Of a stretch of DNA of 64,000 nt, positions 10,073 to 55,881 are shown one piece after another (the stretch's first letter is position 1; each line of letters begins with the position of its first letter). The position numbers and the translations under genes were made by a program. The notes under the pieces are model-generated. The model saw only the letters and a program-made list of their open reading frames with translations, did not search any database and was not told the DNA's origin. The DNA is taken from NCBI RefSeq assembly GCF_000769655.1, contig NZ_CP008887.1, positions 496,001 to 560,000 on the forward strand, read 5' to 3'. This DNA comes from Thermococcus eurythermalis (GTDB lineage Archaea > Methanobacteriota_B > Thermococci > Thermococcales > Thermococcaceae).

Positions 10073-10130
10073 TGCGATGATGAGTGATGGGCGAACCGAA
10101 GGATGAGGAAGGAAAGGTGATCGCTGAGCA
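10073..10130 (+). ncRNA. Box C/D guide RNA candidate 1
   Basis: Boxes and spacing fit the archaeal C/D pattern: C box ATGATGA at 10077-10083, 12-nt spacer, D' CCGA at 10096-10099, 3 nt, C' ATGAGGA at 10103-10109, 14-nt spacer, D CTGA at 10124-10127. TGC before box C can pair with GCA after box D. A TATA-like GTATTAAAG lies about 25 bases upstream (10044-10053). The guides are GTGATGGGCGAA (D') and AGGAAAGGTGATCG (D). Such RNAs direct 2'-O-methylation by fibrillarin; the targets were not determined. Confidence 0.72.
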
Positions 10131-11973: not shown

Positions 11974-12030
11974 TGGGATGATGAGTTCAGCCTTGTCCGA
12001 GCTGTGACGAGGGAGTGACGGACTGACCGC
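11974..12030 (+). ncRNA. Box C/D guide RNA candidate 2
   Basis: C box ATGATGA at 11978-11984, exactly 12 nt, D' CCGA at 11997-12000, 3 nt, C' GTGACGA at 12004-12010, exactly 12 nt, D CTGA at 12023-12026. A TATA element (GTTTTTAAAC) lies about 25 bases upstream. The D' guide contains TTCAGCCTTG, which from memory is complementary to the conserved CAAGGCTGAA of archaeal 16S rRNA. The fifth base before D' would then address the G after CAA, about position 902 in E. coli numbering. The D guide GGGAGTGACGGA has no target I recognise. Confidence 0.8.
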
Positions 12031-22502: not shown

Positions 22503-22558
22503 GCTTCCGAATGAATGGGCAAACCATCTTAGAGGTCTACCGTTTACCCAGCGGAAGC
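22503..22558. ncRNA. Long imperfect hairpin in an intergenic region
   Basis: GCTTCCG (22503-22509) pairs with CGGAAGC (22552-22558) and GGGCAAAC (22517-22524) pairs with GTTTACCC (22542-22549, one G-T), with a 7/2-nt internal loop and a 17-nt apical loop. The element lies in a gap of about 210 bases between the DUF257 and PTPS-related genes. It could be a small RNA or an mRNA 3'-end structure; the strand is uncertain and it does not fit C/D or H/ACA rules. Confidence 0.35.
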
Positions 22559-22578
22559 CTCGGATAGGGTGGCCCTCA

Positions 22579-24834
22579 TCACAGCTCAGGGCCCGAAAGT
22601 CTCCTCATCGGTGCGAACTCCAGCAGTGTGTAGGCTGCGATTATTGCCCATGCGAGGGCCGAATAGTAGCGGAGTTTGATGAATGGGTCAATGAACGCGG
22701 CGCTGATTTCAGAGCTTCCAGCCCCGACGCTTACGAGCGTAAGCCCCGTCCTGTCGTCCCTTACGACATTGGCCTCGCGCCCGTTTACCTTTACTTTCCA
22801 GTGGGGGAAGTAAGCCTCCGATACCCTTAAGAGCACGGGCTTTTTGGCCGTTATCCTGAACGAATACCGGCCGTCCCCGCGGACGAGTTGGTCTATCTGA
22901 ATCCGGGCCTCCTCTTGGGGGATAAGGCTCTTCAGGACTTCCAGCTCGTACTGGGAGCCCGTGTAGGCTATGTGGTACAGGAAGTTGCCTCCGAGGACGT
23001 AGAGGGTTCCGTTTCCAATCTGTTTGGCCCCTATCAGCGTCCACTTTCCCATGCTCACTATTGGGCTCACGTTCGTGAACACCGGCCCGTACCACGGGAA
23101 ATCCCCGTACCTGAAAGACGCGAAGCGGGAGACGTTGTAGACCTCGGAGGAGAGCTCTGAAGCGTTTATCGGCCTTACCTGAGCTCTGACTCCGAAGAGC
23201 GTGTCTGTGCTTTCAGGGACCCATATGAGCGTCCCTCCGCTTTTTACGAACTCCCAGAGATTTTCTGCCGTGTGGTTGTCCGGGTTGCCTGAATAGATAA
23301 CGGCGATTACCCCCGAGAGGTTCGAGGGGAGCTCTTCGGTGTACGCGTAGTCGAGGGGCAGGTCATAGAAGTGGCCGGCCATGAGGGTTGAAACCGGCTG
23401 GACGAAGCTCACGTTGGAGTCATAGACCCTGCACCCTCCTACGGTATGTCGGTATGTGTAACCGTAGGGTGCGGTATCCGTGCAGCTTATGAAGAATCTC
23501 ACCGCGTATGCTCTGAGATACGGAGTCGCGTTCTTTCCTGTCTCCAGGAGAGACCACATCCGCCATTCTCCGTCTCCGGCGGGGTTTCCCTCATGGTACC
23601 AGCCATTCATTGTACCCTTTGAACTTAGAACAGGAAGGTAGCTGTAATGGGCAACCCCTAAAAGGGGGTACAGTGTGAACCTCCAGTCGTCCCCGGGCTG
23701 TTCTCTGAGAAATCTTCCAATCTCAACTAAATTTTGGGGGTAAGGCCCAATATCGGGCATTAGCACCGCTGTTGGAATTGCCGCAATAAGCACCAGAGCG
23801 AGTCCAGCAATGGCTTTTGGCCTCGGCTTCATGCCCTCAAGGGAGTCCGCTACAATCAGGGGCACTAAAATTGATGTAACGTCGAGCCATCTGTATGGCG
23901 GGATGAGTGATACAATGGGAAGGTGGTAGAGCCATCTGGTTGGGGAATACTGGCCGAGTGATAGGTACGCGAATGTCCCGATCAGTGTAACTTTTTTTGT
24001 ATCCAATTTCTGCCTCCGGATTCCGATTGCCACTGCTGTGGCCAGTAATGCCACCATAAAGATTCCTGGGGGAGTTATGAACCGGTCGGGGGACACGCTG
24101 TATCCATGAAAGAGCCATTTGTTTGTGGATATGTTCCAAAAGTGTGTCCATTCCCTGTCATAGAAGAAAGGTATGTACCAGAATGCGGTGAGAAAGATTA
24201 CCGCCCCCGTGACCCTCAGGGCGTTCCCGATAGCACGGAGCTCCGTAAGGCTCTCCCAGTGCAGTGCGAGTGCGAGGATGAGGAGGGGAATCACAATTGA
24301 GTGGTGGGTGATGACGACCAGCGAAATCGAGAGGGCCGAGAGGAGCAGGTATCTCTCCCTGTATTCCCGCAGGAGGAGGACTCCGAGGAGGAAGAGAGGG
24401 GCAAGATGGATGGCGTTCGCCCTAGGGAAGTTGCCCTCGATGTACGCGACGCCGAGGTGCCACGGGAAGAGCAGGAAAACGAGCGGTGCTACGTAGGGCT
24501 CTTTTTCAAGCCTCTTCAGGTAGGTATGCAAGGCGAGGGCACCGAGGAACGCCGTCAGCATGAGGGTCGCCGCGTAGCCCCTGACTGCACTCCCAAAAAC
24601 CTTCCCGAAGAAAGCCGCGATAATGTACGAACCGGGGGGATAGAACCTGAGGAGGGGGAAGCCCGCATACCATTCCTCTATCCACGGCTCCCAGCCGTCC
24701 TCCATTAGCTTGTGGACTTTAAAGAGGTGTCCGAGGCCGTCGCCCTTCAGGTCGGGGTTGGCTGGGGCGAAGAAGAGGGGCAGGAACTCCACCACTGAGA
24801 CAGCAAGCAAAAGGAGGACGTACCCCCGCTTCAT
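22579..24834 (-). CDS. 6-pyruvoyl-tetrahydropterin synthase-related membrane protein, GT-C-like
   Basis: A 751-residue protein with a dozen or so membrane segments in the first 370 residues and a soluble extracellular part at about 380-720, followed by a last membrane helix. The N-terminus (NPDLKGDGLGHLFKVHKLMEDG) has the acidic first loop usual in GT-C glycosyltransferases and the PTPS-related membrane family. It is not a pterin enzyme; the family name is historical. It probably takes part in surface glycan or lipid-linked sugar metabolism. It is translationally coupled (ATGA) to the upstream 143-residue gene and near a GT2 gene. Confidence 0.8.
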   Translation of the reverse strand: MKRGYVLLLLAVSVVEFLPLFFAPANPDLKGDGLGHLFKVHKLMEDGWEPWIEEWYAGFPLLRFYPPGSYIIAAFFGKVFGSAVRGYAATLMLTAFLGALALHTYLKRLEKEPYVAPLVFLLFPWHLGVAYIEGNFPRANAIHLAPLFLLGVLLLREYRERYLLLSALSISLVVITHHSIVIPLLILALALHWESLTELRAIGNALRVTGAVIFLTAFWYIPFFYDREWTHFWNISTNKWLFHGYSVSPDRFITPPGIFMVALLATAVAIGIRRQKLDTKKVTLIGTFAYLSLGQYSPTRWLYHLPIVSLIPPYRWLDVTSILVPLIVADSLEGMKPRPKAIAGLALVLIAAIPTAVLMPDIGPYPQNLVEIGRFLREQPGDDWRFTLYPLLGVAHYSYLPVLSSKGTMNGWYHEGNPAGDGEWRMWSLLETGKNATPYLRAYAVRFFISCTDTAPYGYTYRHTVGGCRVYDSNVSFVQPVSTLMAGHFYDLPLDYAYTEELPSNLSGVIAVIYSGNPDNHTAENLWEFVKSGGTLIWVPESTDTLFGVRAQVRPINASELSSEVYNVSRFASFRYGDFPWYGPVFTNVSPIVSMGKWTLIGAKQIGNGTLYVLGGNFLYHIAYTGSQYELEVLKSLIPQEEARIQIDQLVRGDGRYSFRITAKKPVLLRVSEAYFPHWKVKVNGREANVVRDDRTGLTLVSVGAGSSEISAAFIDPFIKLRYYSALAWAIIAAYTLLEFAPMRRLSGPEL

Positions 24835-40899: not shown

Positions 40900-40960
40900 A
40901 CTAGCTCGGCCAACCGAGTGCTCATCATACCTCAGACAGTGCCGGTCTCGTCATCGCTTG
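40900..40960 (-). ncRNA. Box C/D guide RNA candidate 3
   Basis: On the minus strand: C ATGACGA (40954-40948), 12 nt, D' CTGA (40935-40932), 3 nt, C' ATGATGA (40928-40922), 12 nt, D CCGA (40909-40906). A TTTAAAAAG TATA element lies about 25 bases upstream on this strand (about 40977-40986), shared with the divergent MarC promoter. The guides are GACCGGCACTGT (D') and GCACTCGGTTGG (D). No target was identified by eye. Confidence 0.75.
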
Positions 40961-44113: not shown

Positions 44114-44173
44114 TTTGGGATGATGAGTCTGGAGCCCCCTGAGCGGTGAGGAGGTTTCGCGGGGCTGACCGAG
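44114..44173 (+). ncRNA. Box C/D guide RNA candidate 4
   Basis: C ATGATGA (44120-44126), 12 nt, D' CTGA (44139-44142), 3 nt, C' GTGAGGA (44146-44152), 12 nt, D CTGA (44165-44168). All spacings are exact. The start codon of the next gene is at 44174, so the RNA either shares its leader or is processed from it. The guides are GTCTGGAGCCCC (D') and GGTTTCGCGGGG (D). No target was identified by eye. Confidence 0.78.
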
Positions 44174-44526: not shown

Positions 44527-47268
44527 ATGAGCATGGACATGACCACGAGAATGTTCAAAGAGGAAGGATGGATTAGAAAGCAGTGCCCCAAGTGCGGCAA
44601 GTACTTCTGGACGCTCGACCCTGACAGGGAGACCTGCGGCGACCCGCCGTGTGACGAGTACGGGTTCATCGGAAAGCCGGGCATTCCGAAGAAGTACACC
44701 CTCGACGAGATGCGCGAGAAGTTCCTGAGCTTCTTTGAGAAGCACGGCCACGGAAGGGTGAATCGCTACCCGGTTCTTCCGCGCTGGAGAGACGACGTCC
44801 TGCTCGTTGGAGCGAGCATAATGGACTTCCAGCCGTGGGTAATCAGCGGTGAGGCCGACCCTCCAGCCAACCCGCTCACCATAAGTCAGCCCTCGATAAG
44901 GTTCACAGACATTGACAACGTCGGAATAACGGGCAGACACTTCACGATTTTCGAGATGATGGCCCACCACGCCTTCAACTACCCGGGCAAGCCAATCTAC
45001 TGGATGGACGAGACCGTTGAGCTGGCCTTCGAGTTCTTCACGAAGGAGCTCGGCATGAAGCCAGAGGACATCACCTTCAAGGAGAACCCCTGGGCTGGTG
45101 GAGGAAACGCCGGGCCGGCGTTCGAGGTGCTCTACCGCGGTCTTGAGGTTGCAACGCTCGTCTTCATGCAGTACAAGAAGGCCCCCGAAAACGCCGACCC
45201 GAGCCAGGTGGTTGAGATAAAGGGCGACTACTACGTCCCGATGGAGACCCGCGTTGTTGACACCGGCTACGGCCTTGAGAGGCTCGTCTGGATGAGCCAC
45301 GGAACGCCTACCGCTTACGACGCCGTCCTCGGCTATGTCATCGAGCCCCTGAAGAAGATGGCCGGCGTTGAAAAGATAGACGAGAGAATTCTGATGGAGA
45401 ACTCCCGCCTCGCTGGAATATTCGACATCGAGGACATGGGCGACCTGCGTTACCTCCGCGAGCAGGTGGCGAAGCGCGTCGGCATAACCGTCGAGGAGCT
45501 TGAGAAGGCCGTTAGGCCCTACGAGCTCATCTACGCCATAGCCGACCACACCAAGGCCCTGACATTCATGCTCGCCGACGGTGTAATCCCGTCCAACGTT
45601 AAGGCAGGCTATTTAGCTAGGCTCCTCATAAGGAAGAGCATAAGACATCTGAGGGAGCTCGGCCTCGAAGTTCCGCTCGCTGAAATCGTCGCGATGCACA
45701 TAAAGGAGCTCTCACCGACGTTCCCCGAGTTCAAGGAGATGGAAGATGTTATTCTCGACATAATCAACGTCGAGGAGAAGCGCTATCAGGAGACCCTCAA
45801 GAGGGGAAGCGACCTCGTCAAGCGCGAGATAGCGAAGCTCAAGAAGAAGGGCATCAACGAGCTCCCGCTTGAGAAGCTGATACTGTTCTACGAGAGCCAC
45901 GGCCTTACCCCTGAGATAGTGGCAGAAGTGGCGCAGAAAGAGGGCATAACGGTCGAGATTCCGGACAACTTCTACACGCTCGTGGCTAAACAGGCCGAGA
46001 AAACCGAGAAGAAGACCGCCGCTGAATACGTCGTTGACTTCGAGCTGGTCAAGGATTTGCCCGAGACGAGGACGCTCTACTACGAGGACCCGTTCATGAA
46101 GGAGTTCGATGCCGAGGTTCTCAAGGTCATAGACGACTGGGTCGTGCTCAACCAGACGGCCCTCTATCCGGAGGGTGGCGGTCAGCCCTACGACACCGGA
46201 ACGCTTGAGGTTAACGGAGAGGAAGTCAGGGTCACCAACGTCCAGAAGGTCGGGAGGGTAATCCTCCACAGGGTCGAGAGGCCGGAGCTCTTCAAGCCGG
46301 GCGTTAAAGTTCACGGGAAGCTCGACTGGGACAGGAGAATACAGCACATGCGCCACCACACGGGAACGCACGTCCTCATGGGAGCTCTCGTCAGAGTCTT
46401 AGGAAAGCACGTCTGGCAAGCTGGAAGTCAGCTCCACACCGACTGGGCGAGGCTGGACATAAGTCACTACAAGCGCATCACCGAGGAGGAACTTAGAGAA
46501 ATCGAGCGCCTCGCCAACCGCGTCGTCATGGAGAACAGGGAGGTGACCTGGGAGTGGCTTCCGAGGACCGAAGCAGAAATGAAGTACGGCTTCCGCCTCT
46601 ACCAGGGTGGCGTCGTTCCCGGAAGAACGATAAGGGTCGTTAAAATAGAGGACTGGGACGTTCAGGCCTGTGGTGGAACGCACCTGCCGAACACCGGTCT
46701 AATAGGCCCGATTAAGATCCTGAGGACCGAGCGCATACAGGACGGCGTTGAGAGAATAATATTCGCCGCCGGAGAGGCCGCTGTTGACTGGATGCAAGAG
46801 ACGGAGAGGCTCCTCAAGAAGACCGCTGAAATCTTCCGCGTTCCAGTGGAGAAGGTGCCAGAAACCGCGGAGAGGTTCTTCAACGAGTGGAAGGAGGCCA
46901 GGAAGGAGGTCGAGAAGCTCAGGAAAGAGTTAGCCAAGCTCCTCGTCTACGAGCTCGAAGACAAGGCCGAGAAGGTCGGCGGGGTGGAGTTCATAGGTGC
47001 AGTTGTCGAGGGCACGATGGACGACCTCCGCGAGGCCGCCAACAGGCTCAGGAAGGAGAAGAGGGTTGTAGTCCTCATCAGCAGGGAGGGCCACTTTGTC
47101 GTTGCCGTTGGCGACGGCCTTGACCTTAAGGCTGAGGAGCTGGCGAAAATAATAACCTCCGTCGCTGGCGGTGGCGGTGGCGGAAGGAAAGAGCTCGCCC
47201 AGGGCAGGATAAAGAACCCGCTGAAGGCCGAGGAGGCGATAGAGGAGGTCAAGAAGAGGCTCGGGTGA
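44527..47268 (+). CDS. alaS: Alanyl-tRNA synthetase
   Basis: A 913-residue archaeal-type AlaRS. An N-terminal zinc ribbon ([23 protein letters not shown]) is followed by the class II core, an editing domain with [12 protein letters not shown] and [12 protein letters not shown] (the HxxxH and CxxxH zinc sites), and a C-terminal domain ending [18 protein letters not shown] 44527 is chosen because GGGGTGAT lies 4 bases upstream. It charges tRNA-Ala and clears mischarged Ser and Gly. Confidence 0.97.
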
Positions 47269-47336
47269 GCTTTGGTGAATGTCCTTTGAGAAGCCGTTAT
47301 CTTTTTAAATCCTCTCTCTAACTTTTCTCGGTTGAA

Positions 47337-48134
47337 ATGAGGGACGGCCTTAGAATAGTCCGCGAGTTCTTCGAGGTTCAGAGGGCGATCTTTTTCAGCT
47401 ACCGCTGGGATGTGGTCAGCTATCTGATAGGCCTTCTAATCCAGGTTGTGGTGATGGGGATATTCGCCAGTCTGGTGACTATAAATGCGAACATCGAGCA
47501 GTACGGAACCGACTCATTCCTACAGTTCTTTCTGATAGGCTTCATCGTGCATAACATAATATTCCTTCCGCGGGGTAGCCTTTCCAAGCTCCTGATTGGG
47601 CGGAGCTTCCCAATGCTCTACGCCTCTCCAGCAGGAATGGTGGCGATCTTCGTGGGGATAAACGCTTGGAACGTCGTCTGGAGCCTTATGATAATGGGTC
47701 TGATAACGGCAGTCTTCGTTTTCTTCTACGGCTTGGTCATACACATCAACCTCGGTGCTTTGCTTGTTATCCTCGCGGGCTTCACCCTCACTTTCGCCCT
47801 TGAACTTTTTTCAGCGGGCTTTCGGGCCGCAACTAAAGCCAGACAGGATCCCATAAACTGGTTTCTGAACCTCACGTCTCAGCTCGTTAGTGGTCTTTAC
47901 TTTCCACCCCAAGTTCTCCCTTGGTGGCTCCAGCCTATTTCCAAGATACACCCCGAGAGGTACATTCTTGAGATGGCCAGGCTGACTATGGGCGGGGGCT
48001 ATTCAGTGTCCCAGATCTGGCCCAGCTTCGTTAACCTCGTCATCACCACTGGGGTCATGCTGGTCGTTGGCGTAGCGATGTTCCGCTGGGGGGTCGGCAA
48101 GGCGATGCAACTGGGCACCCTCGGGCACGTCTGA
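47337..48134 (+). CDS. ABC-2 type transporter permease
   Basis: A 265-residue protein with six membrane segments in the ABC-2 arrangement (FIVHNIIFLPRGSLSKLLIG, GLYFPPQVLPWWLQPISKIHP). The conserved loop before the last helices marks the family. CTTTTTAAAT lies about 28 bases before ATG 47337. It is followed after 9 bases by its ATPase. Substrate unknown. It could serve the peptide cluster downstream, but its composition is that of the core genome. Confidence 0.88.
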   Translation: MRDGLRIVREFFEVQRAIFFSYRWDVVSYLIGLLIQVVVMGIFASLVTINANIEQYGTDSFLQFFLIGFIVHNIIFLPRGSLSKLLIGRSFPMLYASPAGMVAIFVGINAWNVVWSLMIMGLITAVFVFFYGLVIHINLGALLVILAGFTLTFALELFSAGFRAATKARQDPINWFLNLTSQLVSGLYFPPQVLPWWLQPISKIHPERYILEMARLTMGGGYSVSQIWPSFVNLVITTGVMLVVGVAMFRWGVGKAMQLGTLGHV

Positions 48135-48143
48135 GGTGGTCAG

Positions 48144-49136
48144 ATGATAGAGGCGGAGCACCTGACCAAGTACTATCCTCCCCCGTTCCGGGGCTTCTTC
48201 GACCTGAAGAGCATAAAGGACTTTCTAGGTAAGCCGAGGGAGGAGATTCCGGCCCTAGTGGATTTGAACTTCAGGGTTCGGGAGGGGGAAATATTCGGCC
48301 TCCTCGGCCCGAACGGTGCGGGAAAGACGACCCTCTGTAAAATTGCCAACGGCCTGCTGGAGCCGAGTTCTGGGAGGTTGCTCATAGACGGCCATGACAG
48401 CTTCCGGGAGCACGGCAAGGTTGCGGGCAAGATGTTCACGGTTTTCACTGGCGAGAGGGACATGTGGGGCATATTCCAGTGGCGTTTAAGCATTCAGAGG
48501 AACCTCCGGTTCATTGCGAGGCTCTGGAAGGTTCCGGAGGGGGAGATAGGGGAGCGCATAGAGTACGCGCTCAAGCTGTTGAACCTGTGGGAGAAGAGGG
48601 ACGAGTGGTACCAGAAGCTCTCGGCCGGAATGAAGCAGAAGGTTTACATCGCCTCCGCCTTGGTGGTGAGGCCGAAGTACCTCATACTCGACGAGCCGAC
48701 GGTTTTTCTCGACGTCATAACCAAGGGTGAGATACACGACGCGATACTGACTATGGCAAGGGACTTCAGGACCACGGTCCTGCTCACCACCCACGATCTA
48801 GGGGAGGCCGAGAAGCTGAGTGACAGGGTTCTGCTCTTCAACAAGAGGCCTATCCTGGAGGGAAAGCCCGAGGAGATAAGTAGAAAGCTTAGGGTTCCAG
48901 TTGATAAGAAGGTTGTGGCCCTGGTGGAGGGAAAATTCGACTGCAACTGTGACGGTCTTGTGAAGTGCACCTTTAAGAACGGCTATACTCATCTCGTTGC
49001 GTATCTTAAGGTTGACGAAGTTGATGAGTTCGTGAGGTTTCTCTCCTTGAAAGGTGCCCTTCAGATTAAGGTGGAGGATCTATCACTTGAGGACGTGTTT
49101 TTACTTATCTTTGATAATAGGTTATTTGGGGGATGA
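48144..49136 (+). CDS. ABC transporter ATP-binding protein
   Basis: A 330-residue ATPase: LLGPNGAGKTTLCKI is Walker A, KLSAGMKQKVYIASAL is the signature, LILDEPTVFLDV is Walker B and TTHDLGEAEKL holds the switch His. A C-terminal extension of about 90 residues (DCNCDGLVKC at its centre) may be regulatory. It pairs with the ABC-2 permease just upstream. Its end marks the left edge of the AT-rich region. Confidence 0.92.
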   Translation: MIEAEHLTKYYPPPFRGFFDLKSIKDFLGKPREEIPALVDLNFRVREGEIFGLLGPNGAGKTTLCKIANGLLEPSSGRLLIDGHDSFREHGKVAGKMFTVFTGERDMWGIFQWRLSIQRNLRFIARLWKVPEGEIGERIEYALKLLNLWEKRDEWYQKLSAGMKQKVYIASALVVRPKYLILDEPTVFLDVITKGEIHDAILTMARDFRTTVLLTTHDLGEAEKLSDRVLLFNKRPILEGKPEEISRKLRVPVDKKVVALVEGKFDCNCDGLVKCTFKNGYTHLVAYLKVDEVDEFVRFLSLKGALQIKVEDLSLEDVFLLIFDNRLFGG

Positions 49137-49184
49137 TGATTTTTCGTGGAATTTCTGTAAATTTGTTGAACAATTGGTAATAAC

Positions 49185-50135
49185 CTATAATGGATTTTTG
49201 GAGCTTTTGAAGTATTCTCTTATGAATACCTCTCTCAGATGGGGTGGTGCTTTTAGGAGGGCTTCGACTAGTTGTTTTTGAAAGTTGATTTGCTGGGGAA
49301 CTCCGGTTTTTTCAAACTCTTCTTTGAATGGTTTTCCATACTTTATAGACCTGAAGAGAGCATGGGAGGAAATTATGGAGGGTCTTATTCCTTCGCCAGT
49401 TAGGGGGTACACTGCCCCCAGCGCCTCTCCTATAACTGGATACTTAAAATTGTACAACTCCTCTTTTATGCCTCCGGCATAAATGTGTGCGCCTTCTTTT
49501 CTTTCAATTTTTGTGTATCTAAAACGCTCATCATTTTTAATGAAAGAGTCAAGTCTCGCTTTCAATTCGTCATGGCTTAAAAATCCTCCAATGCCCACAT
49601 CTGCTTTATTTCCTCGTGGGAATACCCAGATGTAGCCGACGAAATCAGTGTAAAACCTAATTTCTATAATATCATCTTCGATTTTGGCATCTTTAAGTAT
49701 ATATTGGTACGTCAGAAACTTCCACTTGCTTTCATTATGAAATATGCTTCCTGTTGCAATCACAGTGATATCACCGTCTCTCGTTCTTAGTTCTGGCTCT
49801 TGTCCCTTAAATTTGATGGATTTGCCTAGTTTAACGTCCACTCCATCCAAAAGCCATTTAATGAATGATGGTTTGTTGAGTATATACCCCTGCGGTAATC
49901 TTTGATAATTTTCACTCAGTAGCTTATTGTTAAGATATATCTTTTGTCCATATATCTTGTTTAAAATGACTTCCTCTGGAATTTTGATATATTTTTCCAA
50001 ACTTCTTGGAACTGCCCAAGCACAGGGTTTTGCTCCGGGGGATTTCCTTATTTCATAACCTCTTACTTTAAATTCATCTTTAAGGTAGTAAGCTAAAGAT
50101 GCCCCTGCCGGTCCTACACCAACTATGTGAATCAT
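49185..50135 (-). CDS. FAD-dependent oxidoreductase, geranylgeranyl-reductase-like
   Basis: A 316-residue flavoprotein. HIVGVGPAGASLAYYLKDEF is the FAD-binding motif. KPCAWAVPRSLEKY resembles the Cys-containing KPCG motif of archaeal geranylgeranyl reductases, and VFPRGNKADVGIGG plus AVYPLTGEGIRPSI are the later FAD contacts of the group. It is shorter than typical lipid reductases (about 390-450 residues). It is divergent from the peptide genes and AT-rich like them. It may reduce an isoprenoid or oxidise a peptide side chain; a role in peptide tailoring is inference. ATG 50135 is chosen with GTGATG upstream. Confidence 0.8.
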   Translation of the reverse strand: MIHIVGVGPAGASLAYYLKDEFKVRGYEIRKSPGAKPCAWAVPRSLEKYIKIPEEVILNKIYGQKIYLNNKLLSENYQRLPQGYILNKPSFIKWLLDGVDVKLGKSIKFKGQEPELRTRDGDITVIATGSIFHNESKWKFLTYQYILKDAKIEDDIIEIRFYTDFVGYIWVFPRGNKADVGIGGFLSHDELKARLDSFIKNDERFRYTKIERKEGAHIYAGGIKEELYNFKYPVIGEALGAVYPLTGEGIRPSIISSHALFRSIKYGKPFKEEFEKTGVPQQINFQKQLVEALLKAPPHLREVFIREYFKSSKNPL

Positions 50136-50288
50136 TGGCATCACTTATTCTAATTGGACAAATAACTTATTAATTAAGTTTTTGCTAAACCTTTTGCCAG
50201 TATGACACAAGGAAAAAAAAAGATTTTCAACATACTTACAACATTAAGAGCGAAAAAGTTAAATACGATATAGTGACTAATATGAAAC

Positions 50289-50311
50289 GCAAAAACTTAA
50301 TGGAGGTGATG
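50289..50311 (+). repeat. Leader repeat, copy 1 (before peptide 1)
   Basis: Twenty-three bases identical to 50492-50514, including AAAAACTTAATGG and the GGAGGTGAT ribosome site. It places the start of peptide 1 at ATG 50316 (5-base spacing), not ATG 50313. Confidence 0.85.
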
Positions 50312-50315
50312 TATG

Positions 50316-50426
50316 ATGGAGAAGCCGGAGTATGAACTGCCAAAAGTTAGGGTTTTATCTGAGGAGGGGGTTCAACCAGAGGGATGCTTCGGAGGCTCGA
50401 TATCAGATCCCTGTTGTAACGACTGA
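50316..50426 (+). CDS. Predicted RiPP precursor peptide 1, 36 aa
   Basis: A 36-residue peptide. It begins MEKPEYELPKVRVLSEEG and ends PEGCFGG then SISDPCCND. Cys residues are at 24, 33 and 34. It aligns without gaps with peptide 2: shared MEKxxYExPKV, then LSE, P-x-GCxGGxI and CCxD. The first half looks like a leader recognised by PqqD and the second half like a Cys/Gly core. The ribosome site GGAGGTGAT is very strong and 5 bases away. A radical SAM enzyme and PqqD follow. The modification (Cys-to-carbon thioether) is inference; no protease site is obvious. Confidence 0.8.
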   Translation: MEKPEYELPKVRVLSEEGVQPEGCFGGSISDPCCND

Positions 50427-50491
50427 ATGAATGTGTAATGTGTTATCTTTGAATTTTTCCTAATATCTTTCAGTAGTCAGTAAATCGTAAT

Positions 50492-50514
50492 GCAAAAACT
50501 TAATGGAGGTGATG
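50492..50514 (+). repeat. Leader repeat, copy 2 (before peptide 2)
   Basis: Identical to 50289-50311 over 23 bases. It ends with the GGAGGTGAT ribosome site, 5 bases before ATG 50519. With the peptide similarity it shows a tandem duplication. Confidence 0.85.
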
Positions 50515-50518
50515 AGCT

Positions 50519-50629
50519 ATGGAGAAGTCGAAGTATGAACCGCCAAAGGTTATATCTCTGTCAGAAGACGACTGTGAACCAACAGGATGCCCGGGAGGTT
50601 GTATAAATGCGCAGTGCTGTTTTGACTAG
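50519..50629 (+). CDS. Predicted RiPP precursor peptide 2, 36 aa
   Basis: A 36-residue peptide beginning MEKSKYEPPKVISLSEDD and ending PTGCPGGCI then NAQCCFD. Cys residues are at 19, 24, 28, 33 and 34; three of these (24, 33, 34) are shared with peptide 1. The core contains GCPGGC and CC, which suits thioether crosslinks. It lies 92 bases after peptide 1 and 38 bases before the radical SAM gene. Both peptides keep the C-terminal Asp. The gene is too short for usual ORF cut-offs but is supported by its ribosome site, its twin and its context. Confidence 0.82.
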   Translation: MEKSKYEPPKVISLSEDDCEPTGCPGGCINAQCCFD

Positions 50630-50667
50630 TGGGGAGTTTTTCCTAGAAAAGTTGGGGGGTGTAATCC

Positions 50668-51867
50668 ATGGTCATGCTAGATTATCATGCATATAGTATA
50701 GGAGTTGAGTGGCATTTAACATTCAGGTGTAATCTTAATTGTGCTCACTGTTCAGTTGCTTCTTATAGAAATGAAGAGTTTATTAATAAGGTTTATAACT
50801 TGGGTGACTTAAAGAACATCCGTGAGTTGAGATACAGCGAGTGGATACCTTTCTTAGAAATGTTGGAAAAATCCCATTATACTGCAATTCGTGTAGTTTT
50901 CTCTCCTACAAATGGAGAGTCAACAGTACATCCTGATTTTGTGGATATATGGAACACATTGTCGGATATTAAAAATGTGTCGTCCTTGTGGATAGCTACT
51001 AATGGAACAATCTTATGGAAATATTTAGATAAGATGGATTTGACGAAACTGGGGCGTATTACCTTTAGTATTGATGGTGGAACTGCAGAAGTGCATGAAA
51101 AAATAAGGGGAAGAGGCACGTTTGATTCACTTTGGAAATCAATTGAACTTATTGATAGTTTGAAACATGATGATCCAGGCTTTTATCTTCAGGTAAACTA
51201 TGTTATTAATGGGTTAAATGCGGATTCTCTTAAGAATTTACCCCATCTATTTAGACACATAAAAAGCAAAGTAATCATAAATGTATTCCCAATTGACATT
51301 TCCAGTGGAAATGCTCGTGTTAATTATAAGTTATTGAGTATCTCCTGGGACGAAGTTGAAAAAAACTTCGCTAAAATGTACGCTGAACTAAAAAAAATTA
51401 ACTATGAACGAAACCAAGAAAACTTGCCCCCAATAAAGGTGTATATGCATGAGGTTTCTAGCAGAGTATTTCGGTTATTTAAACGTTTAAATGGTCTTTC
51501 ATTGAAAGATTTTAGCTTTAATATACAATCTACACAAAGCACTTGGAAAAGCTGTGCAGCATACAATAAAAGAAGAATATATTTGGATCCCTATGGGAAT
51601 GTGTACCCATGTGGCAAATTTGCAGAGCCAATATTTAGAAAAATTTTCTATGGGGAAAACGGGTATTATGCTGTCCCAAATATCATGGATGGGCTTGTTA
51701 CTATTGAGGACATCCTAAACTCTGAATTTTTTGTAATGGCGAGGAGGTGGATAGATGAGTTATATGAAAAAATACCATGTAGAAATTGCCCTTTAAAGAC
51801 TTCTTGTCCATTCTGCCCAGTAGCGGCATACTACGGAGGTGTCAAAGATGAATGTCTCAAAATTTAA
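50668..51867 (+). CDS. Radical SAM-SPASM peptide maturase
   Basis: A 399-residue radical SAM enzyme. CNLNCAHC (Cys21, 25, 28) binds the SAM cluster. The C-terminus has a full SPASM Cys set: Cys296 and Cys315 with GNVYPC (G-x4-C), then Cys371, 374, 380, 383 and 396 in CRNCPLKTSCPFC and DEC. SPASM enzymes crosslink or modify peptides using two auxiliary clusters, as in sactipeptide, ranthipeptide and PQQ pathways. GGGGGGTG lies 7 bases before ATG 50668. It overlaps the PqqD gene by 20 bases. The substrates are most likely the two peptides just upstream. The sequence is AT-rich. Confidence 0.92.
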   Translation: MVMLDYHAYSIGVEWHLTFRCNLNCAHCSVASYRNEEFINKVYNLGDLKNIRELRYSEWIPFLEMLEKSHYTAIRVVFSPTNGESTVHPDFVDIWNTLSDIKNVSSLWIATNGTILWKYLDKMDLTKLGRITFSIDGGTAEVHEKIRGRGTFDSLWKSIELIDSLKHDDPGFYLQVNYVINGLNADSLKNLPHLFRHIKSKVIINVFPIDISSGNARVNYKLLSISWDEVEKNFAKMYAELKKINYERNQENLPPIKVYMHEVSSRVFRLFKRLNGLSLKDFSFNIQSTQSTWKSCAAYNKRRIYLDPYGNVYPCGKFAEPIFRKIFYGENGYYAVPNIMDGLVTIEDILNSEFFVMARRWIDELYEKIPCRNCPLKTSCPFCPVAAYYGGVKDECLKI

Positions 51868-52105
51868 ATTAAAGGAGTTTTGTATTATTACCGAAGACAA
51901 TTTTTTAGTGAATCTCTCCACAGGAAGAGTATACGAACTTAATACTACGGCAAGAGATTTTATATCATTGTTGCAAGAAGGCAGAGACTTTGAGCAGGCA
52001 TGTCAGGAGATTTCAAGGAAATATTCTATCCCCCTAGAACAAGTTCGTAAAGATTTTTTGGAATTTGTGAATCAACTTAGAGAGCTTGAGATAATAGATC
52101 TGTAA
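51848..52105 (+). CDS. PqqD-like peptide-recognition protein
   Basis: An 85-residue protein with the PqqD pattern: NFLVNLSTGRVYELNTTARDFISLL, then ACQEISRKYSIPLEQVRKDFLEFVNQL. PqqD (RiPP recognition element) domains hold the leader of a precursor and present it to the maturase. ATG 51848 has GGAGGTG 6 bases upstream, within the end of the radical SAM gene, so the two proteins are cotranslated. A free-standing PqqD next to precursors strongly supports a RiPP pathway. Confidence 0.88.
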   Translation: MNVSKFKLKEFCIITEDNFLVNLSTGRVYELNTTARDFISLLQEGRDFEQACQEISRKYSIPLEQVRKDFLEFVNQLRELEIIDL

Positions 52106-52150: not shown

Positions 52151-53308
52151 ATGGAAAAGAGTGGTGTAGTGTTGGGTATAGACATTGGATCATCTCATAT
52201 CAAGACGACTACTCTACACATTTCTTCAAAAAAGATTGACTTTAACGTGTATCCTATTTCATACATTACTGGTAAGCTCAAGCTATCTGGCACGATGAAG
52301 GGGAGAATAGAGAAGCTTATTATTCCAGCATTGGATGCGACACTTTCAAAATATTCAAAGAAGTATGATACCGTATATGTGAATTTGGTAACGTCACTAG
52401 AAGCTGCTGCCCCGTGGTATGACTATTTATCAAAATTTAAAGAAATTGAAATAAAATATGAAAATGTAATTCTTCACACTATGACCAACAGTCTTTCGGT
52501 TGAACAACTGACTTCTCTCAAATCTTGGCAGTATATGTCTTCAATACACGCTGTTAGATATATTGCGGAAAAACTCTTGGAAAATGGAATGTTAATACAT
52601 ATGAACTCCGCTTCTACTTTATTTATCCCGGTGCTTTCTGGACGGGCCATCCCTATGGAAATACATTATTCTTCTGGTGTCGCCTTATGGGTTGGAGCGC
52701 TATACACTCCGCTACCTAGTGTATCTAGCAATGTGTTAGTATTTGGTAAAAAATCTCCTTCTTCTCCAACTACAAATATTAAACTTTATAAGGCCTTATC
52801 TCTCATAGCTAAAACAGAGGTTGCTCGAGCATTAAAAGAATATAAATCCCCGTATCAGATAGACTCTATTAACTCTTCTGAAATGATTTTACAATTTATT
52901 GGATGTTTTCCTAACAAAAAATATCTGAACAAAATCACAAATACGCCGTACAATCTACACAATCAGGCAAAAATTTCGACATTTTATATTTATAGCACCT
53001 ATCTAAACAAAATTCTTGAAAATGTCCTCATGGTTCTTTCTGAGGTAGATATTCCGATAGATACTGCAAAATTCTTAGTAAGTGGAATCGGGAAAGATCT
53101 CATACTTAAGGATGCCCTGTATCTGTTTGCTGATCAATTAGTGGACATTGAGACTTATATACCAAAACCATATTGTATCTTTCTCGAATCATTTGGTGCC
53201 GCACTTTCGTTATATGAGTATCTCACTAGCGAAAAAATAAGCTTGACAGCGGGTCAGTTTTGGCAAACATTCAATGGTGGTGAAAATGATCGAAGCCCAG
53301 AACGTTGA
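52151..53308 (+). CDS. ASKHA-fold protein related to hydantoinase/oxoprolinase and TIGR03123
   Basis: A 385-residue protein. VVLGIDIGSSHIKTTTLH is a phosphate-1 loop of the actin/hexokinase/Hsp70 fold. The middle, GMLIHMNSASTLFIPVLSGRAIP then SSGVALWVGALYTPLP, lines up with the DIGSTTTD...dG...GELVYTG...RTP segment of the TIGR03123 family, but both Asp of DIGSTTTD are replaced. FLVSGIGKDLIL and SFGAALSLYEYL resemble the adenosine-binding end. It follows PqqD by 45 bases, with GGTGA before ATG 52151, and overlaps the ABC ATPase by 23 bases. It may bind ATP or act as a partner protein in peptide maturation; the activity is not known. Confidence 0.6.
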   Translation: MEKSGVVLGIDIGSSHIKTTTLHISSKKIDFNVYPISYITGKLKLSGTMKGRIEKLIIPALDATLSKYSKKYDTVYVNLVTSLEAAAPWYDYLSKFKEIEIKYENVILHTMTNSLSVEQLTSLKSWQYMSSIHAVRYIAEKLLENGMLIHMNSASTLFIPVLSGRAIPMEIHYSSGVALWVGALYTPLPSVSSNVLVFGKKSPSSPTTNIKLYKALSLIAKTEVARALKEYKSPYQIDSINSSEMILQFIGCFPNKKYLNKITNTPYNLHNQAKISTFYIYSTYLNKILENVLMVLSEVDIPIDTAKFLVSGIGKDLILKDALYLFADQLVDIETYIPKPYCIFLESFGAALSLYEYLTSEKISLTAGQFWQTFNGGENDRSPER

Positions 53309-53957
53309 GAAGGTGTATGAGTTTGGCAAAGTTCGGGCTTTAAAGGGGATTAACCTGAAGTTCGAGGAGGGGAGGTTTTACATCATAGCCGGCGCTTCGG
53401 GGAGCGGGAAGACCACCCTTCTCAACATCTTGACAGGCATTGACAGGCCGACGGGTGGCAGGGTCATAGTGGACGGGACCGATATGACCGCAATGGGGGA
53501 GAAAGAGCTGAGGCGCTACCGCCTGGAAAACTTCGGGATAATATTCCAGTTCTTTTACCTTGTGCCCTACCTGACCGGCCTCGAAAACGTCATGCTCCCG
53601 ATGAAGTACTCCCGGAAAATCAGGAACTCCGAGGGGAGGGCGCTGGAGCTGTTGAAGCTGGTCAACGCGGAGCACTTAGCGGACAAACTGCCCGAACACA
53701 TGAGCGGTGGAGAAAGGCAGAGGATTGCAATCGCGAGGGCTTTAGCTAATAAGCCGAGATACCTCTTCGCGGATGAGCCGACTGCCAATTTAGACTGGGA
53801 GAACAAGATGAGAATCTGGCGTCTGCTGAGGGAAATAAACGAGGAAGAGGGCGTTACTGTTATAGCGTCAACCCACGAGAGGGAGTTTTTCGAGTTCGCC
53901 GACGTTTTAATAATCCTCAGGGACGGTGAGGTTCATGAAGTTAAAAGTAACCCTTAG
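53286..53957 (+). CDS. ABC transporter ATP-binding protein (LolD/MacB type)
   Basis: A 223-residue ATPase: IAGASGSGKTTLLNIL is Walker A, HMSGGERQRIAIARAL is the signature, LFADEPTANLDW is Walker B and STHEREF contains the switch His. ATG 53286 is chosen (GGTGGTGA at 5 bases), inside the end of the ASKHA-like gene. GC content is back to the genome norm from here on. It pairs with the FtsX-like permease downstream, overlapping by 23 bases, and may export or detoxify the modified peptide. Confidence 0.93.
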   Translation: MIEAQNVEKVYEFGKVRALKGINLKFEEGRFYIIAGASGSGKTTLLNILTGIDRPTGGRVIVDGTDMTAMGEKELRRYRLENFGIIFQFFYLVPYLTGLENVMLPMKYSRKIRNSEGRALELLKLVNAEHLADKLPEHMSGGERQRIAIARALANKPRYLFADEPTANLDWENKMRIWRLLREINEEEGVTVIASTHEREFFEFADVLIILRDGEVHEVKSNP

Positions 53958-55881
53958 AAAGCTCAGGCACGAAAAGAAAAGGGTTGCTATTGTATTCCTG
54001 GCGTTTCTCTTTGTAAGCCTCGGTTTCAACTTTACACTCTCGGCGGTTGGCAGTATAAGCAAGGCCGTTGAGGATTTTGCCAAGCGGGGGAACGTGGAGC
54101 TTGCCGTCGAGGGGGTCACGGTCGAGGAGCTGGGCAGGTTTGGGGAAGTCGTGAACTACGTCTACTTTAACGACACGGAGGTGGAGTTCAACGGGAAAGA
54201 ATACCGGGCATCGGTTGGCTACGGTGAGTTCAAGTCCCTCCACGTGAAAACACCTGAAGATGGTGCCGTTGTTTTGGCATTCCTGAGGATAAAGAAGGGC
54301 GATAGAATTAAGATTGGGGACAGGGAGTATGAAGTCAGGGCTTCGTACTACTATCTCTCAGGCGTTCCATTTGTGCTGGTAAATAAAAAGGGTCAACATC
54401 TTTACGCCCTTATGCGTTGCAACAACACGGAAGCCCTGGCCATGTTCTTAATGGAGAACGCGAAGGTTGATTATTTCCAGGTCTATGAAGACAGTGAAAT
54501 TCCATACATGGACAGCTTGAAGAACATCAAAAACTTCGCAATGAGCTTTTTCTACCTGCTCCTCGGTGCCTCGCTGGTCGTCATCGTCCTCCTCACGGTG
54601 ACGCACGTCAAGGGAAATGTAAGAGAGGTCGGGATTTTAAAAGCGCTGGGCCTTTCAGATTCCTTCACGTTCTCCCTCTTTGCTGGAGACTATCTTCTCA
54701 TCGCTTTAACTGCATATTTGGTCGGCATTCCGCTTGGAATAAAACTCGGCCATTCCTACGTATCTTCAAGATTCCCGCTCTCAACGAGTCCGGATTGTCT
54801 CTACCCGCTGAAGTTCGATGTCATAATTCTGCTCGGCACAGCCTTAATCCTCTCGCTCCCCTACCTCTACGTTTCGAGGATTCGGACGATCGAGGCCCTG
54901 CGCTTCACCCCCAGAAAGAGCTCCCGGCTCAGGTTCTTCGCCGCCTTTTTCGTCGTTTTCTTAGCCTCCTCCTCGGCATACTTTGGCGTCAAGGGGATTG
55001 AAAACACACTAACCCTTGAACTTCCCTATAATCTTGAGGTGTGGGGTGATCCTTCGAAAATAGCACAGATTCCCGGGGAGAAGGCCGGCTATCTGAGCGG
55101 GCAAAAGGTTAACGGAATGACCACGGAGATATACTTCTTTGACTATGAAAGCATCTTTGAGAAAACCCTCATCGCCGGCCGGTGGTTCGAGAAGGAAGAC
55201 GAGGCGGTCATTGAGAAGGGCCTCGCGAGGAAGCTCGGCCTGAAGGTGGGCGATACGATTAAAGTCCAGCTTCTCGGGGAGGAGAGGGAATACCGCGTTG
55301 TTGGGATAAGCGACATGTACTTCTACGACTTCAAAGCAGTGTTTCTTCCGAAGATTAACGCTGTCCCAGATAGAGTCGCCTTTCTGAACGCGGAAAACCC
55401 GGAGGAGCTAAAGGAGGAATATGAGAGGCTTGGGTTGAAGGTGCATACCATAGATGATTTAAAGAGGCAGACGGAGAACAACTTAATGCTCTTTAAGGCT
55501 GCGGCTTACGGGGTGATGGGCATAATCTTCCCCATAAGCCTCTTCGCGCTCTTCGCCTTAATTTACCTCGAAATCGAGAGCAACGAGAAGGTCTACGCAA
55601 CGCTCAAAGCTGTCGGAATCCCGAACTCCCACGTCTGGAAAGAGTCCCTGAGAAAGGCTCTGCCCTCGCTGATTGCAGGCTCGCTCCTGGCCCTGCCGGT
55701 AAGCCTTAAGGTCGGGGAGTACATCGGGAATATCGTTCTGCCAGCGGAGCTTGGTGTGGGCGATTTGACTAAAATATTCCCTCTACTGCTGGTGCTTTAC
55801 CCCTTCTATGGGGTCTTCATAGTTCTGCTGACGGAGAGGGCGCTTAACAGGCTTGACGTCGTTAAAGCGCTGAGGAGCTAA
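53935..55881 (+). CDS. FtsX-like ABC transporter permease
   Basis: A 648-residue protein with an N-terminal membrane segment, a large outside domain (about residues 45-190), then membrane segments with VREVGILKALGLSDSFTFSL, a second outside domain (about 350-510), and a last trio of segments with YATLKAVGIPNSHVWKES. This two-repeat layout is that of MacB/LolC-type permeases that expel lipids, peptides or toxins from the membrane. GGTGA lies 5 bases before ATG 53935. Confidence 0.9.
   Translation: MKLKVTLRKLRHEKKRVAIVFLAFLFVSLGFNFTLSAVGSISKAVEDFAKRGNVELAVEGVTVEELGRFGEVVNYVYFNDTEVEFNGKEYRASVGYGEFKSLHVKTPEDGAVVLAFLRIKKGDRIKIGDREYEVRASYYYLSGVPFVLVNKKGQHLYALMRCNNTEALAMFLMENAKVDYFQVYEDSEIPYMDSLKNIKNFAMSFFYLLLGASLVVIVLLTVTHVKGNVREVGILKALGLSDSFTFSLFAGDYLLIALTAYLVGIPLGIKLGHSYVSSRFPLSTSPDCLYPLKFDVIILLGTALILSLPYLYVSRIRTIEALRFTPRKSSRLRFFAAFFVVFLASSSAYFGVKGIENTLTLELPYNLEVWGDPSKIAQIPGEKAGYLSGQKVNGMTTEIYFFDYESIFEKTLIAGRWFEKEDEAVIEKGLARKLGLKVGDTIKVQLLGEEREYRVVGISDMYFYDFKAVFLPKINAVPDRVAFLNAENPEELKEEYERLGLKVHTIDDLKRQTENNLMLFKAAAYGVMGIIFPISLFALFALIYLEIESNEKVYATLKAVGIPNSHVWKESLRKALPSLIAGSLLALPVSLKVGEYIGNIVLPAELGVGDLTKIFPLLLVLYPFYGVFIVLLTERALNRLDVVKALRS

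Follow-up and report, generated by a model that had tools for sequence, protein, structure and literature searches.

Twin predicted RiPP precursor genes with a shared 23-nt leader beside a radical-SAM/SPASM maturase in Thermococcus eurythermalis

Archaeal radical-SAM RiPPs (ribosomally made, enzyme-modified peptides) have been predicted in numbers, and characterised archaeal RiPP products are few (PMC12144867). The closest described systems are the radical-SAM/SPASM RiPPs with a discrete PqqD protein, such as sactipeptides, ranthipeptides, PQQ and mycofactocin, in which a short leader-bearing precursor is accompanied by a PqqD-type recognition element and a SPASM maturase bearing motifs for two auxiliary clusters. 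We describe here a locus of similar composition in Thermococcus eurythermalis, within a window of 64,000 nucleotides (the whole stretch of DNA analysed), where four sequence hallmarks of PqqD-partnered radical-SAM RiPPs occur together: a CX3CX2C motif, SPASM, PqqD, and a precursor divided into leader and core. The open-licence literature contains, as far as we could find, no description of Thermococcales RiPPs or of the present precursor-maturase family, although one may have appeared elsewhere.

Twin precursor genes and their leaders

Two small genes lie in tandem behind a predicted promoter, and each is preceded by the same 23-mer, GCAAAAACTTAATGGAGGTGATG.

50250..50265 (+): predicted BRE/TATA promoter GCGAAAAAGTTAAATA, TATA-like box at 50259-50265, from upstream alignment
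50289..50311 (+): first copy of the 23-nt leader, a predicted 5'UTR that includes the full Shine-Dalgarno GGAGGTGAT, exact repeat
50316..50426 (+): precursor peptide 1 gene, MEKPEYELPKVRVLSEEGVQPEGCFGGSISDPCCND, alternative start 50313, start-codon position conserved in the related genome G084
50492..50514 (+): 23-nt leader copy 2, exact repeat
50519..50629 (+): precursor peptide 2 gene, MEKSKYEPPKVISLSEDDCEPTGCPGGCINAQCCFD, from sequence

Because G084 has only the second of the two adjacent ATGs, ATG 50316 is the likelier start of peptide 1, and from it and ATG 50519 the peptides are 36 aa each and align with zero gaps. They share 20 of 36 residues (13/23 in the leader and 7/13 in the core) and the genes 71 of 111 nucleotides. 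Peptide 1 has cysteines at positions 24, 33 and 34, and peptide 2 at 19, 24, 28, 33 and 34; the gapless alignment thus bears out an earlier, sequence-only reading in which peptide 2 has two additional cysteines (19 and 28), and the gene duplication proposed there is supported as a tandem one. The same reading spoke of diversification of the core under selection, and in this respect it is not supported. Nei-Gojobori estimates for the twins are dN 0.37 and dS 1.12 (dN/dS about 0.33), pN/pS is 0.50 (bootstrap 0.28-0.88), and identity is about equal in leader (57%) and core (54%), so that the core carries no sign of selected diversification; we reject positive selection on it, and note that 36 codons are too few for demonstrating such selection. 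The twins are an old duplication followed by purifying selection.

The 23-mer is the longest repeat within 50146-50668, where the longest repeat in first-order Markov simulations was 14 nt (n=1000), and the identity noticed earlier ahead of the start codons is thereby confirmed. The twin copies are mismatched 5' of the element and also unlike between it and the start codon. It is exact in G000 (twice), G063 and G084, which are three of the 115 Thermococci genomes, and absent from the remainder. The promoter is kept in four genomes of the upstream alignment, in some with one or two substitutions, and since the BRE/TATA centre lies about 26 nt before 50289, the predicted +1 is the first base of the 23-mer; we infer that the element is the predicted 5'UTR of gene 1, reused ahead of gene 2. 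Only three plus-strand occurrences of GGAGGTGAT are present in the window and two of them are the precursor-gene sites; high precursor expression, judged from this Shine-Dalgarno site, is plausible. With synonymous divergence of the twins near 0.58, the 23 unchanged leader bases imply either constraint or conversion, which supports the suggestion that a translation signal is being maintained, and the identity is more readily explained by a constrained 5'UTR together with a ribosome-binding site. The short 5' leaders fold weakly (about -2 kcal/mol), and folding them revealed nothing distinctive as 5'UTR structure. Elsewhere in the window, Rfam identifies C/D box guide RNAs sR1 (10073-10129), sR60 (11974-12028), sR47 (22558-22612, minus strand), snoPyro_CD (40903-40958, minus strand) and sR23 (44118-44170); these Pyrococcus-type RNAs and the relatives recovered place the genome in Thermococcales.

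The sequence TTTTTCCTA is present 3' of both precursor genes (50454-50462 and 50637-50645, about 28 and 8 nt past the stop codons), and these copies are possibly weak T-run terminators lowering maturase expression.

The maturase and its partners

The genes surrounding the precursors are as follows.

47337..49136 (+): ABC-2 permease and ATPase, Pfam ABC_tran, with ABC2_membrane marginally under cut-off
49185..50144 (-): FAD-dependent oxidoreductase, geranylgeranyl-reductase superfamily, oriented divergently from the precursor genes
50668..51867 (+): radical SAM/SPASM peptide maturase, 399 aa, from Pfam, Cys positions and relatives
51839..52105 (+): PqqD-type RiPP recognition element, 88 aa, Pfam PF05402
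52136..53308 (+): MfnF-like ASKHA-fold protein, 390 aa, conserved maturase partner, from profile and fold matches
53274..53957 (+): LolD/MacB-type ABC ATPase, candidate exporter, LolD family at 208.7 bits, under cut-off
53926..55881 (+): FtsX/MacB-type permease, candidate exporter, Pfam FtsX and MacB_PCD

The maturase passes the Pfam cut-offs for both Radical_SAM (58.1 bits versus 29.5) and SPASM (23.5 versus 21.5). All ten of its cysteines fall within these motifs, three in the CX3CX2C (C21, C25 and C28) and seven in SPASM (C296, C315, C371, C374, C380, C383 and C396), corresponding to two auxiliary Fe-S clusters. It reaches the cut-off of no NCBIfam maturase equivalog model, the best being TIGR04317 (63 bits versus 380), and the sactipeptide and ranthipeptide maturase models are not reached either (StsB 44.5 bits versus 625, AlbA 31.4 versus 850, and GggB 27.2 versus 650). 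A partial match to viperin is confined to the radical-SAM core, and we reject this identity because the SPASM cysteines, PqqD and precursors suit a peptide maturase; a search of a defence-system library gave no convincing match. A second radical-SAM/SPASM maturase-like gene of 477 aa is found elsewhere in the same genome (L002 853-2286, C1 about 1462200-1463630). It adjoins an ABC ATPase, shows about 30% identity across part of its length, and possibly marks another peptide cluster.

The PqqD neighbour adjoins the maturase and is a clear PF05402 member (E=4.1e-14, 53.1 bits versus a cut-off of 23.4). The proposal of twin RiPP precursors is supported, and we consider it highly probable that the tandem 36-aa genes, which lie 5' of the maturase and PqqD genes, encode precursors of such a peptide. 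It is also very likely that PqqD recognises the precursor leader; retention of a leader for enzyme recognition had been suggested before, and for PqqD-type recognition this agrees with the presence of Y-E-x-P in two phyla beside unlike cores.

The 390-aa protein matches nothing in Pfam and scores 26.7 bits with NCBIfam MfnF, far under the cut-off of 520. Its sequence profile matches PDB 3c0b (E=5.8e-12), and the top fold matches of a low-confidence structural model (pLDDT 55) are ASKHA proteins led by the same 3c0b (E=4.9e-10), so the fold match agrees with the profile in predicting an ASKHA fold. Its gene is next after PqqD in all five maturase-bearing loci, and the LolD ATPase gene is 3' of it in every island examined. 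The FAD oxidoreductase matches Pfam GGR_cat and also TIGR02032 (E=3.6e-30), yet under the cut-off of the latter; strong orthologs are present in five of the 115 Thermococci genomes, the very five with the ASKHA gene, although this co-occurrence may reflect linkage rather than function. LolD-FtsX is not specific to the cluster, being found in 14 of 115 genomes of which nine, all Thermococcus, have neither maturase nor ASKHA gene, with other neighbours in those inspected. No dedicated leader protease was seen at the locus. GC content is 34-42% from the FAD gene through the ASKHA gene, versus 51-58% in the flanking genes, marking a low-GC island.

Distribution and cassette exchange

The maturase gene is present in three and the ASKHA gene in five of 115 genomes of the class. 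A single-sequence genome scan found no maturase relatives, and a three-sequence alignment retrieved two more, in two DHVE2/Thermoplasmata genomes; no additional members were found in 400 genomes of the Thermoplasmata class and 117 of the order of G116. Family members are about 41-45% identical to the window maturase. The DHVE2 gene order is precursor, maturase, PqqD, ASKHA, ABC-2 permease, ABC ATPase, LolD and FtsX, and the small precursors MVYEAPSIKKVAGGPAPTSPAGAVICCFCTK and MAYEAPSLKKASGGPAPASPTGVAVCCICNAE, with a YEAP leader, are directly 5' of each maturase. Together with the twins and the G084 precursor MEYEAPKIEAVENGVEPYGMDIHIHCPS, this gives five precursors from four genomes; in G072 and G110, whose contigs break at the site, no precursor is visible. 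The invariant residues M1, Y6, E7, P9 and P21 are all within the leader, and a CC pair near the C-terminus is present in four of the five, the G084 core having one Cys and no such pair; a conserved leader with a variable core beside the maturase is thus seen across all five.

Comparison with G084 tentatively suggests exchange of the cassette. Across 46006-50321, which ends six bases into the precursor gene, it matches the window at 92% DNA identity; from there until 53276 (LolD) it is unrelated, and a similar context then resumes (sharp junctions at L011 5854 and 10132). The interval holds another precursor-maturase-PqqD-ASKHA-ABC cassette, with maturase and ASKHA proteins 44% and 47% identical, on one MAG contig in which flanking genes are frameshifted, so that the arrangement is provisional. 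The G110 contig ends 5' of the maturase, with no precursor visible there, in sequence present elsewhere in G084, which is likely an insertion element. In G063, loss of the DNA corresponding to 50365-52018 has taken out peptide 2 and the maturase entirely, along with the end of peptide 1 and most of PqqD, and about 147 bp of the FAD-oxidoreductase gene is inverted (L012 7552-7698; 97% identical, opposite strand). Frameshifts in orthologs had been named as evidence against functional precursors, and the loss in G063 is instead one deletion across several genes.

A different radical-SAM maturase of about 483 aa is found beside the same ABC-2/ATPase pair in G091, G043, G037, G075, G038, G081 and G114. 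It is related to nif11, PapB, QhpD and SCIFF maturases, under their cut-offs, and is followed by two small Cys-rich CxxD-type precursors with MFKKLN-type leaders. These ranthipeptide-like cassettes, in at least seven Thermococcaceae genomes, have ABC genes matching window 47337-49136 and are located as follows.

L053 7730-9543: ranthipeptide-like cassette
L054 7791-9569: ranthipeptide-like cassette
L055 3740-5497: ranthipeptide-like cassette
L056 7030-8772: ranthipeptide-like cassette
L057 3451-5233: ranthipeptide-like cassette
L058 4491-6269: ranthipeptide-like cassette
L060 4072-5863: ranthipeptide-like cassette

A further copy in G060 appears decayed, and in G063 the ~483-aa maturase is intact past FtsX while the island is decayed; in G000, G072 and G084 the island is present and the ranthipeptide-like cassette is absent at the site. 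The locus is probably a site at which peptide cassettes are exchanged beside an ABC exporter, and from the pattern across species, twin precursors and replaceable cassettes seem to be a property of the locus. Close to the ABC homologs of G094, the opposite strand also carries an ORF for a Gly/Cys-rich peptide of 60 aa (L061 1202-1384), perhaps another small-peptide system.

Proposed pathway and relation to known systems

The explanation that we favour, with a probability of about 0.85, is that tandem RiPP precursors are bound by PqqD, cross-linked by the SPASM enzyme, tailored by the ASKHA and FAD proteins, and exported by an ABC transporter. The gene anatomy, its conservation and the island are direct observations. 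Several features favour the RiPP reading: the precursors-maturase-PqqD-ASKHA order recurs in the two DHVE2/Thermoplasmata genomes, the low-GC island is absent from most relatives, G063 lost precursors and maturase together with rearrangement of the FAD gene, the same ABC genes in relatives adjoin a different cassette for radical-SAM peptides, invariant precursor residues are confined to the leader with a CC pair in four of five cores, and the maturase cysteines all lie in radical-SAM/SPASM motifs. Both precursors would depend on the 50250-50265 promoter, and a full-strength ribosome-binding leader ahead of each would put the peptides in excess over the maturase. PqqD would bind the leader through the Y-E-x-P motif and hand over the core, to be cross-linked by the radical-SAM/SPASM enzyme, most likely via Cys 24, 33 and 34 (in peptide 2 also 19 and 28). 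The Cys-bearing cores are compatible with thioethers from Cys to an alpha- or a non-alpha-carbon, and we give a cysteine thioether, as opposed to another type of cross-link, even odds; such chemistry may not be general, because the cores are very short and that of G084 has a single Cys and lacks the CC pair. The ASKHA protein may carry out additional ATP- or flavin-dependent steps, and so, in Thermococcales, may the FAD enzyme. The product would leave via LolD-FtsX and/or the adjoining ABC-2 transporter; export is somewhat more probable than not, and the nine Thermococcus genomes that have LolD-FtsX but neither maturase nor ASKHA gene weigh against the scheme. An antagonistic, archaeocin-like role is a tentative suggestion with slightly less than an even chance.

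That the twin genes are chance small ORFs without translation is extremely improbable: they are very short and match no NCBIfam model, but gapless twin homology, pN/pS below 1, perfect ribosome sites, and a leader motif common to two phyla at the same gene position all argue for real genes. The 23-nt identity might also reflect recent gene conversion or plain inheritance and not functional constraint. The G084 upstream DNA is near-identical over about 170 bp, and identity there is therefore inherited; in the window, however, the 23-mer flanks differ on both sides and twin synonymous divergence is about 58%, which makes 23/23 by drift very unlikely, and in G063 the element is 23/23 although the 23 bases directly 5' of it have diverged. 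We consider this explanation unlikely.

Other alternatives accept the modified peptide and differ in what it does. The twins could form a two-component product acting jointly as in thuricin CD, one enzyme maturing both, consistent with their retention with unlike Cys patterns under purifying selection and with the two unlike precursors per enzyme in the unrelated cassette that relatives have at this locus. However, G084 and the two DHVE2 loci, with the same maturase family, have one precursor each, and joint action is somewhat unlikely. Less likely again is that the peptide is not secreted but serves as substrate in the synthesis of a small molecule, either a redox cofactor or a metal ligand (compare PQQ and mycofactocin). 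The PqqD partner, the very short core, the FAD enzyme, the relationship of the ASKHA protein to a cofactor-biosynthesis enzyme, and the tungsten-cofactor and mycofactocin maturases among the nearest maturase models speak for such a pathway; the patchy island with transporters, the variable twin cores and the cassette swapping speak against it, and in cofactor pathways the core is usually invariant.

Returning to the exported RiPP pathway, a bolder version would make it a new archaeal class spanning Thermococcales and DHVE2, with a radical-SAM cross-link followed by an MfnF-like ASKHA ATP-dependent step and with precise exchange of precursor-maturase cassettes behind a promoter and 23-nt leader that stay fixed; taken as a whole, this is doubtful. 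The gene set common to Thermococcus and an unrelated vent archaeon points to an unnamed archaeal modified-peptide family, and the alternation of two unrelated cassettes next to one exporter suggests competition or signalling among vent archaea via changing peptides. The locus is compact and testable, having two precursors, a single maturase, a single leader-binding protein and a ribosome-binding leader that is fixed, and some Thermococcus species are genetically tractable.

The system differs from the PqqD-partnered radical-SAM/SPASM RiPPs in that no equivalog cut-off is met, in its archaeal host, and in its ASKHA partner, for which we found no description in such clusters in the open-licence literature. 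PDB 3c0b is both the profile match and the best fold match to that partner, which is unlike MfnF of methanofuran biosynthesis both in score and in its linkage to a peptide maturase. Likeness to PapB/SCIFF-type ranthipeptides (PapB: PMC9413430) lies outside the window, in the cassette of other Thermococcus, whose PapB/nif11/QhpD-like maturase is a distant relative of the window maturase. Thuricin CD (PMC12093266) resembles the locus in the co-production of two Cys-containing precursors and in radical-SAM maturation, but uses two maturases where the locus here has one, and two-component action of the Thermococcus twins is hypothetical.
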